This document shows positions 45,827-56,216 of a stretch of DNA of 64,000 nucleotides, one piece after another. Position 1 is the stretch's first letter; each line of letters starts with the position of its first letter. The translations under genes were made by a program, and so were the position numbers. Origin of the DNA: Lenzites betulinus (Eukaryota > Basidiomycota > Agaricomycetes > Polyporales > Polyporaceae); contig JABYQU010000003.1 of assembly GCA_022264855.1 (NCBI GenBank), forward strand, positions 1,178,001 through 1,242,000. Direction: 5' to 3'. Below the pieces are notes generated by a model. The model saw nothing but the letters and a program-made list of their open reading frames with translations. It was not told where the DNA came from and made no database searches.

Positions 45827-46326
45827 TCATAACAATATGTTGAAATTGTTCCTGTCTCCTTGGCGCACCACAGTTTTCTTCTGATACAGCACATGGTCTT
45901 GGTAGGTCGTCGACACCGGAGATGATGACTTCTGAAATAGCCAATACGCCATTTTCCCGCCCTCTCTCCACCGCGCGCGAATCTGCTCAAAGCCGACCGC
46001 CGTCATCAAGCCCTGGAAGTGCTCGGGGGTCAAGTAGCGCGAGTTGAGGACACAAGGCAGCGGGAGCTGTTGATATCGGGCGGGTCAGCAAGTAGCTGAG
46101 GTCAAACATAGCCACTGGACGCACAGCAACGAAGAGGAAGCCTTTCGCCTGTAGCATCGTGTGTGCCAAGCGTAGCATGTTTCCTGCATTTGTGATGCTG
46201 TGGTCAGTATACTTGTTGCGGTATTGTATATGCCCTCACCTCTGTTCTTTGGATCTGGGACGAAATTGAGGACGAGACTGAGGCTGATTGCATCCCAGCA
46301 CTCGCGATGCTCTTCGGCATCCATTA
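45827..46326 (-). pseudogene. BMT2: BMT2 3' part: 25S rRNA adenine-N1-methyltransferase, C-terminal exons
   Basis: SAM-dependent methyltransferase that makes m1A in large-subunit rRNA in the nucleolus. The segment encodes MDAEEHRECWDAISLSLVLN, FVPDPKNRGE, an intron, MLRLAHTMLQAKGFLFVA, a second intron (GTGCGT...CAACAG), then LPLPCVLNSRYLTPEHFQGL, GFEQIRARWREGGKMAYWLF and the stop at 45827-45829. Every conserved block of the C-terminal half is present and in frame. The gene is cut at 46326 by the terminal repeat of the transposon; the N-terminal half lies 8.66 kb away at 54989-55551, same strand, on the other side of that insertion. Confidence 0.87.
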
Positions 46327-46362
46327 CATCAGGGAAAACCCCCATCTATAACGAGGGCTAAT
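46327..46362 (+). repeat. Left terminal inverted repeat of the Plavaka element
   Basis: 36 bp beginning CATCAGGGAAAACCCCC; 32 of 36 positions match the right terminus (54953-54988) in reverse complement. Confidence 0.85.
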
Positions 46363-47304
46363 GAGCATTAAATAGCGGGAATAGCCGATTAGCTCAAAAA
46401 GCAAGGTCCGGTTTTAATGAACGGTGGTTAGTGTGATGAGTTGGCGGTAAGAGCGGAATCAGCAGATGTAATGAGACCTTATGAGATCTCAATGAGCCGG
46501 GTTAATGAGGTCTAATTGACCATTAAGGAGGCCTCGTGAGTACTGAGTGGAGATGTTAACGAGAAGTAATGAGCGCACATTTGCTCGACATATCTGCCAG
46601 ATTAGTCCCTGATTAGAGTGCATTCGCAACGGCTGACACACAATAGCAGGATATTATAACGAGTCGTATGGTATTAGTAGACGTATTTTACAAGCAGGCC
46701 CATCCTCGACATGATGAGCCCACAATGGTAGTAAGTAAAGTATACTACAGCCACATCGGCGCCCGGGCACGAGCTGAGAGGACAGAAGGAAGCATACAAG
46801 AACATCCATGATCGGGCGTCGCCGCCGGAGCGATGGGTGAGTGGTACCATATCTATCATAATAGAGTGAGTTGGGATGCGGGGCTGATAGGGCGAAGAGG
46901 GCAGGGTTGTGACGATACTGTAGAGCAGGGTGTAGTAAGTAGTCCGATGACTATTGTAGGCCAGAGAACGTTACCGCTAGCAGGCAAAACAGATATGAAC
47001 AAATAAAGATACAACGACACGTCGCAGGCCTCCGCGGCGGTCGGCCTATTAGCGAGGAAATGTGGCGTGGCGACTTGGAGTGCGAGCGAACGATGCCAAC
47101 GCGGCGTGGATGCGTCGATGCAACGACTGAGTCAACATGGATGTTGACGCGACAGTGCTGGGCGTAGCGGCGTTTACGAGCGAAGTTGATGGCATGGTAC
47201 GTCACAAGGGCGGAGTGGGGAGGAAGCTGAGAGGCGGGGTGATCTGTACAAGGTAGATACAGTGCTCGGTGCCGGGCGGTGGGGTCTGACAGCGACTGCA
47301 GTGC
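46363..47304. other. Left subterminal region of the transposon, no gene
   Basis: About 940 bp. Four TAATGAG copies (46359-46365, 46469-46475, 46503-46509, 46567-46573) may be transposase-binding sites. No open frame here resembles a known protein. Confidence 0.55.
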
Positions 47305-49765
47305 TTAGTCGACCTCCATGGCATCGATGTCGAGTCGGCCGACTGCCGAGGGTGTGCCCGTCTGTGCAGGGTCTGCCAGTCCACTGAGAAACATTAGACA
47401 CATGGGTGAGCGGAGTACTGATTGTGTGAGATGTATGACGAGCCTGCATACCTTACGACGTCGTAGAGCTTGTGTGTCATGGTGTGGTACTTCTGCAAAC
47501 TCGCCGTCCTAATTGCCTTGAGCAGTGTGACGTGCTCATTATAGGCGTCGAGGTATCTATCTGCAGAGAAGCTGCTGGCGTTGATGAACTCTCCGGACTT
47601 CCAGTCGACAAGCGACGCATGAATCTGAGCAATACAATAACACGATAAGTGTTAGCTGCCGTATCGGGTGAATAGGAACTCAAAGCGCATACGGCGGTTC
47701 CTACAAGCGCAAGCATGGCAGCTGGAATCTCTTTCTCATCACGGTTGGGGAGGGAGGACCGGAAGACGTCGGGATTCCTATTGGCAAACGACTTCGGCCC
47801 CTTGAAAAATGTCTCTCTAATGACTGAGACGACGACAGAATGCTGATAGGGCTTCGCCTCGCTAATCGACTTGCTCTGTTCGACGCAAATTGTCAGAGCA
47901 CGCAAGGGAAAGAGAGATCGACCGACTTACCTCAAAATCGCACGGGTACACATAGATTAGCTCCGGAAGGAGCCAGTTCACCTTGTCACTAGATTTTCCT
48001 GAGACTAGTACGTATCCAGACGCAACAGCGGCATCACTTTTCTCCTTGACCTTGCCTCGAAAGCTGCTGATGCGCTGATTAGGCTGTAAGCAATTGTACC
48101 ATTAGTCAATGGAGGCAATGCGAGCACGGTGAATAAACAAACGATAGCAGAAAGAGCTCGTGTGAACGTTCCATCGTTGATCATGCGATGTGTAAGTTGC
48201 TTATACTTAGCTCGGGGCTCCAGGGCCTTCGCGGTTTCAACCATTGCCAGCCGGACTGAACGGCCACGATTTCGTGCATCAGGGAATGCATCATGGGAGA
48301 CAAGGTCGCGCTCCAGGCGTTGGTTCGATGCGCGAAGCACGTCTTGAATGTCAGGGTGTTGACTCTTCAGTGAGAGTTGTCCGCCGTGGGCCGGAAAGAT
48401 CACCTGATATGCATTTGCCGGGGGACTGGGGTCGATGTCAGACGGCTCGCTGGAATCGATGATTGTGTTTGGCTGTAGGTTCAAATGTCCATTAGTGCAT
48501 GGCCATACACAAAGGTACAACAACGTACCTGTCCGGGCCAATGTATCAGAGGGACAGATAGAGGGAGCGGGACGTACTTCTTCTCCTGAGCCTTGATGGG
48601 CCGATTAAGAGCAGGAGCAGAAGGAGCAGTGGCCTGAGTTTTGAACTCAGGACGCTAGCATATTGTTGAACATAGAACTTAATGACTGTAGCTCAGAGAG
48701 GACAAGGCAGTAATACTTACCTCGAGCTTGACGCGGGCATTCAGTGACAGAGCAGTACGGTTTGCTGCCGTGACCTAATTGGGGTTGTAGCACGTGGGTT
48801 CAAACTCTAATCTTGCAAACACTCACCACTTCGCCACCAGTCCCACGACTCGCTTTCATCCGAGCAGCAGCCTGTGGAGTACGTGTTTGTGCAGCTGTCT
48901 CTGATCCAACCCATCGAGGAGCCTATAGACCCTTGTAAGCATTTTAAAATCTTAATCACGGATGTTTGCTCACCTCCATGGCCAAGCTTTGGGCAAGCGC
49001 GTGACCATTGTTCTCGAGTGAGGCCATTAATTCATCCTCAGATTCAGTTTGCTCAGCCGCAAACCCTTCTTCCTCCTCAGGGTCACCATCGTCACTGTCA
49101 GTGTCGTCGACTAGTGCCTGAGGGTTGTGTACATCCGGAATAAATGAATGTGGACTCTCCGAAGGGAGTCCACCAGCCGTTTGCACCAACGCTCGTGTCC
49201 TCGGAATGGTCAGTGCTAGCGGCCTATCACTCTCATCACCTGACTCGCTAATAAGCTCTTCAGTGCATAGCGGATACCCTAGCTCGATAGCAGAATGAGA
49301 ATCTGTATATGGAATGAATACCGAGTACGTACGCTCCACTGAGGGCATACCAGGTGCCGATATGTCACCTCCCAAATGGGCGGGCATGTCTTGTTTATCG
49401 ATGATAACGGGTGCTCAGGTAGACGTAAGTCTGCATTATATGTGTCGCGGAAAACACAAGTATAACATACATGCTTTCCGAACAGCCTTGACACGCTTTG
49501 CTGCACGGCCAGCAGCTTCCTGGGACGTTAGGAGGAGCGCATGTTTATCGCCAGGTGCCGGGCCTATTTGGGTGTCATTCGACACTGGTAAGCATTATTC
49601 TCGTGAATGACAAGTCTAGCTGCTTATAGACTTACCTATGTCCTGTGCAGCGTCATCAGCAGTCGGCTTAGCAAGTCGTTGACTCCTCCGCATCTGTTTG
49701 ACTGCAGTGCCCTGGGCTACAGGAGGATGTCGACCCTTGCGAGTAGATGGCTTAGTCGCTGGCAT
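47305..49765 (-). CDS. DUF6532-type protein encoded inside the Plavaka transposon
   Basis: Starts at 49765 with a Lys/Arg-rich N-terminus (MPATKPSTRKGRHPPVAQGT) and a second basic segment (RRSQRLAKP). A long acidic disordered region follows (DDTDSDDGDPEEEEG). The C-terminal domain reads RASNQRLERDLVSHDAFPDA, KVNWLLPELIYVYPCDFE, YQHSVVVSVIRETFFKGP, DEKEIPAAMLALVGTAV, IHASLVDWKSGEF and RYLDAYNEHVTLLKAIR. The helical pattern with PAAMLALV and the 'xxASLxxWxxG' block is what I know as DUF6532, a domain of unknown function common in Agaricomycetes. The last intron (GTATGC...CTCAG) gives the ending VVSGLADPAQ and stop TAA at 47305-47307. It is transcribed away from the transposase across a 380-bp gap. 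Basic and acidic low-complexity parts suggest a nuclear protein; that is inference. Confidence 0.72.
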
Positions 49766-50145
49766 AGACGTGTAAAGATGATGAATGTATCAGATGGCCA
49801 GACGTTCAATAGTCGAGTATTGAAAAAAGCGCAGATTATTGCTGGGTTCAGGCACGTCTTGCTCTCTACTTATATGAATGCAAAATCTGACCAGCGCTTG
49901 TATTCTTTAGCCCATGCTGTAGACTCGAGCAGTTCTGGAGGGATCGAGTATCGGCTCCCGCTGCTCTGGGTGCAGTCTCAGACCGGCCTTCCCGCTCACC
50001 GCCGTGGCCGCCCGTTGCGCATGATCCGCCCGTATTCCTCATCCCGCCCCAGTTTGTTGCATGCCTTTGAGCCTCCACCTTCCCTGCCCAACCAAATCTC
50101 CCCATCTACGACAGTCTTGACATCGTCTGTTTCAAACTTGCTGCT
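49766..50145. promoter_or_regulatory. Divergent promoter between the DUF6532 gene and the transposase
   Basis: 380 bp between opposed start codons within the element. Sharing this short region would couple expression of the two genes. No definite core element is seen. Confidence 0.5.
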
Positions 50146-53100
50146 ATGCCCAGTCATCGGTGTGATGGCTGCAACACTGTCTTTACATCCAACTCTGGAT
50201 GGAGTAATCACCTTCGCCAGACTGCGCAGCTGAAGTGTATCGCTGTTCGCGATAGAGAACTTGCACATGAGCAAGCAATGTTCTCTGCAGGTGTTCAATT
50301 CGACTCCAATTCTACTGCTGATCTCTTTGATACTCCTATGGACATCGACGTGAATGCTGCTCCTATCGCATTCGAAGGCGACTTCTTTGGCAGTATATAC
50401 AGCAATAACGATCTTGGGCAACCTTACGACAATCAGGCCTCTCCTTCTCAGTCCTTTGCTTGCTCCCCGGACTCTTCGGAGTGGGAGGTTTCCGACGATG
50501 AAGCACGCCCCTCTGAGACACACTGGGAAGCTCCCGCTGCTTCGCCATCCTTCATGACACAAGACTCCCCTCCCGCTGAACCTATCACGCCAAGCCCAAG
50601 CGAGGCCAGTCCAAGCAGTCGTCGTGCTGGAGGTGAAGCATCTCTTCGAAAAACGTATGTTGTACACTTCCCTAGCAATCGAGCAGGTGCACCACTCGCT
50701 GTGGCAGACGCCGAGTACACATACAACCATTATCGTGCTGAGCTTGAGCTTGGCAACGCCTCCCCATATGCACCCTTTACATCACAGATCGATTGGGACA
50801 TCGCATCGTGGGCTAAGAGACGCGGTCCGGGCTCGACAGCACTGACTGAGCTTCTTGAGATCGATCATGTATGAGCCTTTCTTTTTATCCAACTTCTCTA
50901 ACGCTGATTTGCTTGAAGCTTGCCGAACGTTTAGGTCTCTCGTACTCGAATGCACGCAGCCTTAACAAGATCATCGACCACGATATTGCTGCATCGCGCC
51001 CACCATTTGAACGGCATGAGATTGTAGTTGCGGGGGAGGCCTTCGAAGTGTACTATCACGACGTCCTGGCTTGTGCGCGGGCGCTCTTTGGTGATCCGGA
51101 GTTTACAAAGGAACTCCTTCTAGTACCGGAGCGGCATTATACAGATGCAGACCAGAAGGTTCGTGTGTACTTTGACATGAACACCGGGCAATGGTGGTGG
51201 AGCGTTCAGGTATGTTGTGTGCTTGAACCTCTATTTACATTAGCTAACCCTTTTGAGCATATAGCAAGCACTGGAGAAGCGGCGCGAAGGCGCAACCATA
51301 ATCCCCATTATCATATCCTCCGATAAGACTCAACTCACGCTCATTGGAAACAAGTCCGCGTATCCTGTGTATATGACGTTGGGGAACCTCCCGAAGGACG
51401 TTCGCTGCAAGCCTTCAAGACGGGGACAGATCCTCCTTGCGTACCTGCCTACATCCAAACTCGAGCACATCACCAACAAGGCTCAGCGTCGCCGGACTCT
51501 TGCCAACCTGTACCATGCCTGTCTTACTCGTGTCTTGCAGCCTCTTCAAACCGCTGGTGTAGATGGGATGTGTATGGCGCGTGGCGATGGAGTCGTCCAT
51601 CGGGGGCACCCTATTCTCGCTGTTCATGTGGGGGACTATCCTGAGCAGCTTCTCGTGACTGGATGCAAAAACGGCGAGTGCGCAAAGTGTTCCATTCCGC
51701 GTGCAGAGCTCGGACAGTCGTCGGATACCCATAGACCCTTACGCGACCTTGGCAAGGTTTTCGATGCCCTCGCCTCCCTCGACGAAGGTCCCCGAGCTTA
51801 CACGAAGGCCTGTCGTGAAGCTGGGATCAAGCCCCTCTTCCATCCCTTCTGGGAGTACCTTCCATACACGAACATCTATTGCGCGATCACACCTGACATC
51901 CTCCACCAACTCTATCAGGGCGTTATCAAGCACATCATCGCCTGGCTAACAGCAGCCTATGGAGCAGATGAGCTTGATGCACGATGCCGTCGTCTCCCCC
52001 CCAATCATAGCCTCCGGCACTTTGCGAAGGGGATTACCACGCTCTCACGAGTGACCGGAAAGGAGCACCAAGACATGTGTCGGATCCTGCTGGGGCTCAT
52101 CATTGGCATACCCCTTCGTGATGGACTCTCGCCATCGCGGCTTGTTCGTGCGACTCGTGCTCTTCTTGACTTTCTCTATCTTGCGCTGTACCCCTCGCAT
52201 ACTTCAATTACCCTTCGGCTTCTTGATGACGCACTCCAGACCTTTCATGCAAACAGGTCGATCTTCGTTGATCTTGGCATTCGTGAGCACTTCAAGCTTC
52301 CGAAGCTACACTTCTTCGACCACTACCGGCAGTCCATCAAGTTGTTCGGGACCACCGACAATTACGACACGCAGTTCTCTGAACGTCTGCATATCGACTT
52401 TACCAAAGAAGCCTATCGTGCGACGAACCACAAGGACGAGCTCTCACAGATGACCATCTGGCTTGAGCGCAAGGAGAAGGTGGAACGGCATGCTGCGTAT
52501 ATGCGATGGCGACTACAGCAAGGTAATTGAGCCTTGCAGTGTACGGCTTGTATCTACTGATGTATAGCAATGTAGTGCCCGAGCCGCCTCCACAGCCTGT
52601 CACCCCTCCGGCGCCGGCATGCCTTGTGTCTCCGCTGTCTCCAGAACACCCTCTTCCTCTGACGCCAGGGCCTACCACACCCAATGTGTCTCCTCCAAAA
52701 CAACATGGAGGACGTCCAAGAACCCAGAAGCCACATGAAGACGCCTCGCACCACGTTGTTCGCAAGCCGCGCCTCGAGATGACTCGTTATCCCTCGGTCA
52801 GTGCTGCGATCACATTCCAACAGCTCGCCCTTGATTACGGAGCCACATACTTCCGCGACGTACTCGCGCGGTTCGTTGCTCAACGTAATGATGTCTTGCA
52901 TCAACTCTCGGACTCGGACACTGAGATTGAGAAAGCCTCAGCCGCCATCTATTTCCCATTTCACCGTGTCCCAGTGTACCACCGGATCAAGATTTGGATC
53001 GACGAGCCGGATGGACTCCTGGCAATCCCGCAGGTCGGGGATCTCATCCACGTTCGCCCATCTAGGCAGGACAGGCACGGAACGACTGTACCTGCTCGAT

Positions 53101-53569
53101 TCGACACCGTTCTTGTGAATGTGGGTACAAGCAGCATGCGCGATATACATCGTGAGTTATCATACCATTATCTCTATAGATTGTTCGGCTACTAATTGCC
53201 AGTGCAGGTTTTCGAGTGGCCCAGGTCCGTGTTGTCTTCAAGATCCCAAAAACGGACCTGCCGACCTTGTTTCCACGCAATGCTGGGGCGACTTACCCTG
53301 AGCATCTTGCATATGTCGAATGGTTCACACCATTCACTCCTGACCCGCATCCGGATCATGGACTCTACAAGGTATCGCGCTCGATGCGGCGCGGCGCGCG
53401 CCTAGCGAGCATCATCCCCGTCGAAGACATTGTGCGTTCGTGCCATCTTATTCCAGACTTTGGCGCAGTGGCCCCCCGTGAATGGACCTCTAGTACCGTC
53501 TTAGAACAATGCTCTAGCTTCTATGTAAACTCGTTTGCAGACCGGAATACATACAAACTACTGAACTAG
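50146..53569 (+). CDS. Plavaka transposase, apparently full length
   Basis: DDE-type transposase of the Plavaka group. The N-terminus has a C2H2-like finger (HRCDGCNTVF, then NHLRQ). A disordered Ser/Pro region follows, then YTYNHYRAELELGNASPYAP, a 50-bp intron, LAERLGLSYSNARSLNKIID, and RVYFDMNTGQWWWSVQ. The core has IIPIIISSDKTQLTLIGNKS, YPVYMTLGNLPKDVRCKPSR, VGDYPEQLLVTGC with CxxxxCxxC spacing, PDILHQLYQGVIKHIIAWLT, RVTGKEHQDMCRILLGLI and FSERLHIDFTKEAYRATNHK. The C-terminal exon (after an intron at about 53151-53208) ends REWTSSTVLEQC and FYVNSFADRN before the stop at 53567-53569. The Asp of SSDKT and that of GDYPEQ are candidate catalytic residues by analogy. No frameshift or internal stop is needed. 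Confidence 0.88.
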
Positions 53570-54952
53570 TACCGGTCCCTCAAGCGGCATCTTGCTTGCT
53601 CCCGCTTTTATCATAGCCTTTCCCACGGCCCGTTTTGGTGCGACGTGTGCGGTCGCCTACAAGCGCCTACAGCATTCCTTCCACGCCAATGTGACTGTCC
53701 TCCCCCGCCCCATTCCACCCCCACTGTGGCCGCGTGCTCTTGCTGGGCCATACCATGGCCCTCCATGCATGCTCCCATCTTCCCTAAGTCACTCTCTGCC
53801 CTGTGACATGTTCTTGCTGGGTCGCACAACGGCCCTCCATGCATGTGCTGGCAACCTCTCGGAGCCCCTCCCCGTCCCCCTCCTTTGCCCTCGGAATGTA
53901 GAGCATTGCTCACATTAATGTACCCCATTGGCTGGTACGCCTGACATGCCACGCCTATGTATATTGGGCAGATCCATCTGACCTGTAGATCGCCTCCCCA
54001 TCTAGGTCTCTTTGGTGCAAATATCAAATCTGCACCTTCGCCTGCGACGTGTTCCTGCTGGGCTGCACCCCAGCCCTCCATGCACGTACCGGCATACCCC
54101 CAGCCCCCCGCGTCCCCCACTTTTGCCCTCTCCAAACCAAGCGCCGTATGAATGGTGCAAACCCGGAGGCATGAGCCCATTTGTGGTGAGCATTTGCAGG
54201 CTGCTCTCCAGTCCCTCCCCTCCTCGAGCAGGGATGTCAGCCCGCGGGCGGATGCTCCGACGTGCATCAGCGCGTCGTGACGCCGTCCACTCGATCCCCT
54301 CCCTCATCCACTCTCGAGCAGGGACGTCAGCCCGCGGGCGGATGCTCCGACGTGCATCAGCGCGTTGTGACGCCGTCCACTCGACCCCATCCCCCCTCCC
54401 TTCTCCCACCGCACTCTGGCCTGTGACGTGCTCCTGCTGGGCTGCACCCCGTCCCTCTATGCGCGTACCGTTGAGTTTCGAACACCCTCACCAACAGACT
54501 CCCGGAAGGGCATTGCGACGATTGTCGGTATTACAGCAATCATGTAAGAACGCCGGGCGAGGATTTGGAGTGAGTGACTCGGTGCTCGGACATAGGTATG
54601 CTGTAACTCAAATAAGTCGCCGAGAATTGCTCTGCCAAACAAATTTATTGCTCGAACCGATGCCCATGGACCTCAACAATCGTGTTGTGAATGTCCTAGG
54701 CCTTGCTAATTTATGCCTCGCAAGATATGGCCTCGCGGATGTGGCTCCCCTTGAGGCGCCCGTGTCCAACTTCCAAGCGCTTCAAACCTTGGCCGCATCT
54801 CGCGGTTTCGCTGATGCCACTTAACGCATACTTATACATAGCGACACATTGGGCGAGCATGCTTTACTTACAAGTAAGTGGTCATATATGGCAAGAAGCT
54901 GTGATTAGGAGGGCCTCGAGCGATTATATGGATTATCCGGGTCTAACATGTA
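53570..54952. other. Right subterminal region of the transposon, repeat-rich, no gene
   Basis: GC-rich and pyrimidine-rich sequence. A degenerate unit of about 45 bp (core TGCTGGG...GCCCTCCATGCA) occurs four times: near 53732-53772, 53801-53846, 54041-54090 and 54419-54470. No coding region is recognised. Confidence 0.55.
54226..54405. repeat. Two tandem 90-bp repeats in the transposon's right part
   Basis: GAGCAGGGAYGTCAGCCCGC recurs at 54226 and 54316 and both copies continue nearly identically through GACGCCGTCCACTCGA. Only scattered substitutions separate them over the shared part. Confidence 0.75.
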
Positions 54953-54988
54953 ATTATCCCTCGTTAGGGACGGGGGTTTTCCCTGATG
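54953..54988 (-). repeat. Right terminal inverted repeat of the Plavaka element
   Basis: Reverse complement starts CATCAGGGAAAACCCCC; matches the left terminus with four substitutions. Confidence 0.85.
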
Positions 54989-55551
54989 TAGCAGGAAATC
55001 CTGCTCCTGGATGGACGGATGACGAGAATGCAGGTCGATAGGTGATACACTTATCCATCCACCACAGGACGAGTAGTTATCGGGTTTCAGAGCGCCGACC
55101 TCCAGGAGTCTATGTCGGTAAATATTAGCAAAGCAGGCAAAGAATAAAGGTGGACGAAAACTTGCCGTAGTTGGCAGCTCTTCTCCTTCATGGTCTGCGG
55201 AACTTGAAGCTCGCGGAGCCAGCCTATGAGGATTTTCTCGCTCCCACCTCCGCGGTCGCTGCTCTGGCCAATGGAAGACATATGTTGGTACGCCTCCAAC
55301 CCGCCGAGTTCCTCGATTTCTCGTTCTACGGTACCGAGCTCAATTTGTGCACTTGAAGCATTGCGAGCGTGTGCAGAGACGACGTTCTGGAGCTGCGACC
55401 GACGTTTGATAAGTACATGGAAGCGTCGAATGACGGTTCTCGTGGCCTGCGGGTGACTGGAGGTACCGCCGGCTTGGGAGCTTGGTCCAACCGTGGAGGG
55501 GCCGGCGACGGTCACCGGAGTCTTGCGTTTGGTTTTCCGCGCTTTAGGCAT
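54989..55551 (-). pseudogene. BMT2: BMT2 5' part: 25S rRNA adenine-N1-methyltransferase, N-terminal exons
   Basis: Start at 55551 (MPKARKTKRKTPVTVAGPS), a basic N-terminus suited to the nucleolus. Then VIRRFHVLIKRRSQLQNV, EREIEELGGLEAYQHMSSIG, QSSDRGGGSEKILIGWLREL, and an intron with an unusual GC donor (GCAAGT...CATAG) joining SCQLR to LLEVGALKPDNYSS. The segment runs through PIDLHSRHPSIQEQDFLL and stops at the TA duplication of the transposon. LLEVGALKPDNY is the SAM-binding motif region of this family. The continuation is MDAEEHRE in the other half at 46324, in frame once the element is removed. Confidence 0.87.
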
Positions 55552-55621: not shown

Positions 55622-56216
55622 TTTCACAGGGGGCAAAGTAAAATATTCCGGAGGAAAACATGCCATGAAGATGTCGGAGTTTGAAAAGTTGTTTGTGTCA
55701 TTTTGCGCGCACGAACATGGCTGAAACATGTCAGAAATCTACGATATCACGAACTGCACATTTTTGGCATGTTGTCAGGACAAAAAAAGCAATAATATTC
55801 GAACTTTTCTAGACATGTTGTCTGCCATGTTTCTGTGGAACGAAAATGGCAAGGACATTTCCACTTTTTATGACATGGTGCGTTGTAAAATATAACGCAA
55901 ACATTGCATAGAGAACATGGGAAATATTGCTGCCATCACTATGTCGTTTTGTCTTCCATAACATGCCATGATTCCTTCATATCTTCTTGACATTTCTTTT
56001 GGACATGTTTCACTCCTAAACATTCCGCGAACATCTCTGATATTTTTCGCTATGTTTTTGGGTAGAACACACCACAATTATGTCAATAATATGTCAAAAA
56101 CTCCCATTTTATCTCAGCCATGTTCGTGCGCGCAAAATGATACAAACAAGCTTTCAAACTCCGACATCTTCATGGCATGTTTTCCTCCGGAATATTTTAC
56201 TTTGCCCCCTGTGTTT
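55622..56216. mobile_element. 589-bp CACTA-like MITE (55625-56213) with TTT target duplication
   Basis: Long terminal inverted repeats (about 105 bp per side, few mismatches) begin CACAGGGGGCAAAG. A TTT triplet flanks each end (55622-55624 and 56214-56216), fitting the 3-bp duplication of CACTA/EnSpm-type elements. The interior is AT-rich and repeats ACATG/CATGT pentamers more than ten times on both strands, like the subterminal transposase-binding arrays of that superfamily. It encodes no transposase. Its left end lies about 70 bp upstream of the BMT2 start codon, inside the likely promoter. Its termini differ from those of the Plavaka element, so it was probably moved by another transposase. 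Confidence 0.75.

Follow-up and report, generated by a model that had tools for sequence, protein, structure and literature searches.

PlavakaB transposons, as described in PMC12730594, have termini of the form CATCA..TGATG and produce target duplications of 2 or 3 bp, and some families carry a TET/JBP dioxygenase gene whose product has been proposed to counter silencing. In En/Spm elements, TNPA recognises subterminal repeats and both TNPA and TNPD are required for transposition, with known helpers of this type showing little mutual similarity (PMC2613891). The targets of VANC, a protein of VANDAL elements, are often tandem repeats that differ between related transposable elements (PMC5735166). 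Here, a 64,000-nucleotide stretch of the Lenzites betulinus genome (the window) was found to hold a complete PlavakaB-type element in which the Plavaka transposase gene (PF18759) is accompanied by a divergently transcribed gene for a DUF6532 protein (PF20149). DUF6532 is almost certainly a regular element gene of these transposons and, as judged from genome-wide sequence comparisons, is a long-standing second gene and not cargo.

Pairing and shared history of the two genes

Exon-level profile searches of the genome returned 132 matches to PF18759 and 38 to PF20149 (47 at E ≤ 5, adding no locus), which were clustered into 53 Plavaka and 20 DUF6532 loci. The Plavaka gene closest to a DUF6532 locus was divergent in 17 of 20 cases, at a domain-to-domain distance of 2.0–3.9 kb; random placement within 5 kb would yield this count with a P of about 4e-28. 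Orientation was divergent at 17 of the 18 DUF6532 loci with a Plavaka within 5 kb. DUF6532 partners occurred at 17/22 Plavaka loci in which the profile match has a two-exon layout (the B layout) compared to 0/31 of the others (Fisher, 8e-10).

Element ends were read for 16 of the 17 pairs, the pair at C62 being left out. In ten of these, CATCAGGRAA termini faced outward at either end and the flanking 2-bp duplication was exact (TA in the window, AT at C25, CA at C26, C58, and C75, GC at C59, AC at C19b, AA at C17, TT at C19a, and TG at C43a), with lengths of 5,907–8,662 bp; the left end at C59 was picked between two candidates tied by motif. The remaining six pairs had one clear terminal inverted repeat (TIR) or none. 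Both domains lay inside all ten complete elements, DUF6532 being flanked by the transposase on one side and a TIR on the other, and the outward TIR motif just beyond the DUF6532 gene recurred in element after element.

Protein searches of other species supplied 18 DUF6532 proteins, of which five carry a gene number next to that of a Plavaka protein among the matches listed: one in Trametes cinnabarina (BN946_scf184766.g43/g44), three in Ganoderma sinense (GSI_03309/03310, GSI_05802/05801, and GSI_00011/00012), and one in Earliella scabrosa (C8Q76DRAFT_795146/795145, from contigs of equal length, although these gene numbers are not necessarily in positional order). A further pair from Dichomitus squalens (P0010, P0084) sits on one 6,974-bp contig. 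Adjacency was checked against the best 120 of 1,546 Plavaka hits, and the other 12 foreign proteins cannot be judged on this basis.

Within the genome, the distance matrices of DUF6532 and transposase were strongly correlated over the 17 pairs (r = 0.895, reached by 0/10,000 permutations), and also within clade I (eight elements; r = 0.862, 1/10,000 permutations) and within clades II–IV (nine elements; r = 0.874, 0/10,000 permutations). The nearest neighbour was the same for both genes in 14/17 elements. Because identities fall to 16% for the DUF6532 domain and 27% for the transposase, DUF6532 diverges faster, along much the same tree. These comparisons show DUF6532 to have been inherited with the transposase throughout the diversification of the elements in this genome. 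The pairing probably arose once, but this falls short of proof, because a DUF6532-less branch, consisting of two transposases of the other layout (27–36% identical to DUF6532-bearing loci over >300 positions), joins between clade I and clades II–IV; the branch is long, and no TIR was found for either locus on it.

The dN/dS ratio (nonsynonymous to synonymous rates) of a passenger gene is expected to drift towards 1. NG86 values for DUF6532 were 0.09 (C60/C26), 0.092 (C25/C43b), 0.056 (C19a/C61), 0.084 (C65a/C54), and 0.043 (C62/C19b), and those for the transposase 0.07 (C60/C26) and 0.09 (C25/C43b), ratios that are rough as most dS values exceed 1. By this measure DUF6532 is under purifying selection about as strong as that on the transposase. 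For C60 and C26 (L007, L013, L006, L015) DUF6532 gave a dS of 1.07 and the transposase one of 0.43, a mismatch that may reflect exchange or recombination between elements.

An earlier note on the window had proposed that DUF6532 may be a transposon-encoded accessory factor, and this is supported by the conserved divergent orientation, by the pairing in Lenzites betulinus and, by gene numbers, in other species, by the common TIRs with target duplications, and by the agreement of the two gene trees. The same note had raised two alternatives, and neither fared well. That DUF6532 is a captured host gene or the passive cargo of one element draws on the three loci of 20 that lack an adjoining divergent Plavaka, but C61 lies about 4 kb from the end of a contig without Plavaka, C12 (L025) duplicates 3 kb of the C54 (L024) unit at 98% identity on a contig without a Plavaka match, and C65:162320 has its own DUF-side TIR motif at 163544, with a same-strand Plavaka 4.4 kb away that is already paired with another DUF6532. 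Together with the congruent distances, the divergent arrangement, the purifying selection, and the pairing in other genera, this makes cargo very improbable. A separate DUF6532 element nested inside a Plavaka element is more improbable still, close to negligible: no point in its support was found, the TIR motif recurs beyond the DUF6532 genes, their distances agree with those of the transposase, and no private TIR with its own duplication was noticed around the window DUF6532 gene among the 25 longest of 94 inverted pairs.

The C12 stretch is possibly a segmental copy or a deletion derivative. Weak Plavaka-profile matches in open frames of 493–530 amino acids (C98:528527-529243, C50:132592, C50:235924, C89:48556, and C13:428210) perhaps belong to another transposase family or to domesticated copies.

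The element in the window and its insertion site

The window unit is, on its sequence, an autonomous-looking two-gene PlavakaB transposon related to CACTA/EnSpm (Table 1). Its termini CATCAGGGAAAACC...GGTTTTCCCTGATG show the CATCA..TGATG pattern and, with the 2-bp duplication, fit the published description of PlavakaB (PMC12730594). The window repeat scan recovered the ends as an inverted pair (46325-46362 / 54953-54990, TA included) of 38 nt and 89% complementarity. The element interrupts a Bmt2 methyltransferase paralogue, of which positions 2–55 and 53–96 of the profile PF11968 match to the right of the element and positions 102–221 to the left, so that the two halves flank it in the correct order and a single TA joins them in frame. 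The empty site, rebuilt with one TA, gives an open host frame reading ...QEQDFLL up to the insertion point and MDAEEHREC... beyond it. The TA was identified as the target duplication because the Bmt2 halves flank the element and the frame stays open when one TA is left between them. Elsewhere in the genome (C31:131822-132658), a Bmt2 match runs uninterrupted within a 365-amino-acid open frame.

Both gene models are open, with GT..AG introns, though there is doubt about the acceptor of exon 3 of the DUF6532 gene (CAAG), and the deposited models of the two genes differ from those given here (600 amino acids for P0001 and 878 for P0016). The DUF6532 protein matched PF20149 with E = 1e-42 (146.7 bits; curated cut-off, 24) and the transposase matched the full PF18759 profile, 1–325, with E = 6.5e-113. 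The TIR pair, the empty-site frame, and the gene models thus confirm the earlier description of a single TIR-bounded unit with a TA duplication, in which an intact-looking Plavaka transposase lies 380 bp from a divergent, multi-exon DUF6532 gene with basic and acidic low-complexity parts.

The spacer between the two start codons is presumed to be a promoter region shared by both genes. Such an arrangement would suit a DUF6532 protein that restrains the element, as a repressor of the divergent promoter or an inhibitor of the transposase, and so spares the host damage. The many diverged families in one genome would also suit such a regulator, as would the 301-bp DUF-side end of the window element, which was its own sole genome copy in a search that ignores very common words. 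Selection within a genome for a self-inhibitor would in general be weak, yet DUF6532 and the transposase are under similar constraint, and a restraining regulator is considered improbable.

Table 1. Features of the PlavakaB-type element and its insertion site in the window
Feature	Position	Strand	Details
Complete PlavakaB-type element, TIR to TIR	46327..54988	.	8,662 bp
TA target-site duplication, left copy	46325..46326	+	
TA target-site duplication, right copy	54989..54990	+	
Left TIR, DUF6532 side	46327..46362	+	starts CATCAGGGAAAACCCCC; inverted-repeat scan
Right TIR, transposase side	54953..54988	-	inverted-repeat scan
DUF6532 gene	47305..49765	-	11 exons, 617 amino acids; PF20149 at residues 362-571
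DUF6532 exons 1-6	49636-49765, 49471-49584, 48974-49389, 48827-48922, 48721-48774, 48529-48654	-	
DUF6532 exons 7-11	48143-48472, 47931-48083, 47693-47875, 47452-47624, 47305-47383	-	
Plavaka transposase gene	50146..53569	+	5 exons, 1069 amino acids; PF18759 at residues 250-566
Transposase exons	50146-50868, 50919-51209, 51265-52522, 52576-53151, 53208-53569	+	
Spacer between divergent start codons 49765 and 50146	49766..50145	.	380 bp
Four TAATGAG repeats (46359, 46469, 46503, 46567), DUF-side subterminal region	46359..46573	+	candidate binding array
Four dispersed ~60-nt repeats and a 90-bp tandem pair (54223-54402), transposase-side non-coding arm	53717..54470	+	
Split Bmt2-like 25S rRNA methyltransferase paralogue, profile matches	45836-46312 + 54989-55332	-	

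To the right of the split Bmt2 gene, at 55625-56213, the window holds a 589-bp hairpin resembling a miniature inverted-repeat transposable element, with 100-nt arms that are 97% complementary; one further full-length copy was found (C55:193987-194575, 99% identical).

Subterminal repeats and the role of DUF6532

The N-terminal half of the window DUF6532 protein holds the acidic and basic low-complexity stretches, and residues 1–298 of the deposited protein gave a mostly low-confidence structure model, except for a helical stretch at 182–202. The C-terminal 289 residues gave a confident, mostly helical model (mean predicted local distance difference test [pLDDT], 85.8; predicted template modelling score [pTM], 0.82). 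The consensus motifs were QRIS.FRG, KPY, EKEIP..MLAL, and FSAD.Y.DAY. A Pfam scan of 17 DUF6532 proteins found no TnpA/Tnp1 or other transposon-helper family, no Myb/SANT family, and no known anti-silencing protein.

The co-inheritance and constraint of the two genes suggest that the element probably requires DUF6532 in order to transpose or to evade silencing. By analogy with TnpA, a helper that binds the element ends is held at about even confidence. Such a protein would act in the nucleus, where its conserved, mostly helical C-terminal domain of about 280 residues would bind the ends or the end-bound transposase and its low-complexity N-terminal half would mediate contacts; like TnpA alongside TnpD in En/Spm, it would aid synapsis or excision, with the family-specific subterminal repeats as its putative sites.

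Candidate sites of this kind were seen in several families. In the window element, TAATGAG has four copies in 400 bp of the DUF-side end compared to at most two in 1000 shuffles, the motif having been chosen from the same sequence. In clades II and III, the motif RTAGC, picked by eye after all ten complete elements had been viewed, tends to point inward, with 19 copies in and 5 out at the four ends of C25 and C17, and 35 in and 13 out at nine further ends, where 35 was reached by 0/1000 dinucleotide shuffles. At three previously unviewed ends (C60, C61, and C65b), 13 inward copies were counted against a shuffle mean of 4.8, a number reached by 1/2000 shuffles. Arrays of this type would be the expected targets of a TnpA- or VANC-like protein, though they are not universal here.

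These repeats also bear on the main rival explanation, in which DUF6532 is an anti-silencing factor that would bind element-specific repeats and counter cytosine methylation, RNA-based silencing, or silencing resembling repeat-induced point mutation (RIP), like VANC in Arabidopsis VANDAL elements. The co-inheritance, the purifying selection, the family-specific non-coding repeats, and the low-complexity N-terminus would all fit, VANC targets being often element-specific tandem repeats (PMC5735166), and the TET/JBP dioxygenase of some other PlavakaB elements is a proposed counter-silencer (PMC12730594). Given that the Pfam scan matched no known anti-silencing protein, this explanation is regarded as tentative, well short of probable.

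Several observations weigh against an end-binding helper, or against a second gene on which every element depends. A DUF6532 match is missing at five of the 22 Plavaka loci with the B layout (C24, C46, C86, C78, and C65:142243). Three of them (C24, C46, and C86) contain stops, but C65:142243(-143277) is free of stops in both matched exons and has a 670-amino-acid open frame, and C78 (L002, C78:3767-7786) retains almost the whole PF18759 profile in one frame with a single stop (TAG). Because these last two are near-intact without DUF6532, the elements may be able to do without the protein or to obtain it in trans; both loci are possibly DUF6532-less derivatives, and the C78 Plavaka is 81% identical to that of C19a. 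The transposase may also bind DNA by itself, through a weak C2H2 finger at residues 4–24 that falls below the Pfam cut-off. Foldseek with the DUF6532 domain model found no solved (best E, 2.4) or viral structure at E ≤ 0.001, and the DUF6532 dN/dS for C58/C43a was higher, at 0.22 (55 codons). As for the repeats, the TAATGAG array was not found at the other end of the window element, and the inward bias of RTAGC taken alone at the three unviewed ends was not significant (13 in, 7 out, P = 0.13). RTAGC was weak in clade I (16 in, 6 out; 22/1000 shuffles reach 16) and showed no enrichment in clade IV (3 in, 5 out; 582/1000 shuffles).

It is considered somewhat probable that the orphan DUF6532 family of mushroom-forming fungi is in its entirety the second gene of PlavakaB, a helical fold without a solved match that was acquired about once near the PlavakaB base and has been co-evolving with the transposase and the ends, in which case PlavakaB transposons would consist of two components, the second representing a new class of partner that binds ends or counters silencing.

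Comparison with known systems

The pairing identifies a domain family that appears unexplained in the lists of genome papers, and DUF6532 genes are to be treated as transposon genes instead of being counted as host gene expansions. Plavaka passes from a lone transposase to a two-gene system with parts open to expression and testing, and the many naturally diverged pairs of protein and ends in one genome allow the co-evolution of helper and site to be studied.

VANDALs are Mutator-type elements. VANC resembles DUF6532 as an element-encoded protein other than the transposase, associated with family-specific non-coding repeats (PMC5735166), but it is a protein of plant elements and the Pfam scan showed no similarity to DUF6532. 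Harbinger/Nuwa elements are likewise two-gene DNA transposons, whose second protein is a DNA-binding Myb/SANT protein (PMC12730594), but they belong to another superfamily and 0/17 DUF6532 proteins matched a Myb/SANT family.

The TnpA and TnpD proteins of En/Spm (CACTA) elements combine a CACTA-related transposase with a second, fast-diverging protein and with subterminal repeats (PMC2613891), as is seen here, where repeats occur in several families (in clades II and III, weakly in clade I, and not in clade IV) and the second protein lies within the same TIRs as the CACTA-related transposase in 10/16 pairs. TnpA and TnpD are alternatively spliced products of one transcript (PMC2613891), whereas the two proteins here come from separate divergent genes on opposite strands; DUF6532 proteins had no Pfam match to the helper families, and their end binding is putative.

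A Ganoderma paper lists PF18759 and PF20149 together among extra domains (PMC8955403), and it was only as such a Pfam-list item that DUF6532 appeared in the literature searched, a search with the PlavakaB supplements and the original 2014 Plavaka description outside it. Within this literature, DUF6532 as a regular second gene of PlavakaB is novel. The elements share with the published PlavakaB (PMC12730594) the PF18759 transposase, the CATCA..TGATG termini, and the 2-bp duplication; the main text of that description does not name DUF6532, which is here the regular second gene.

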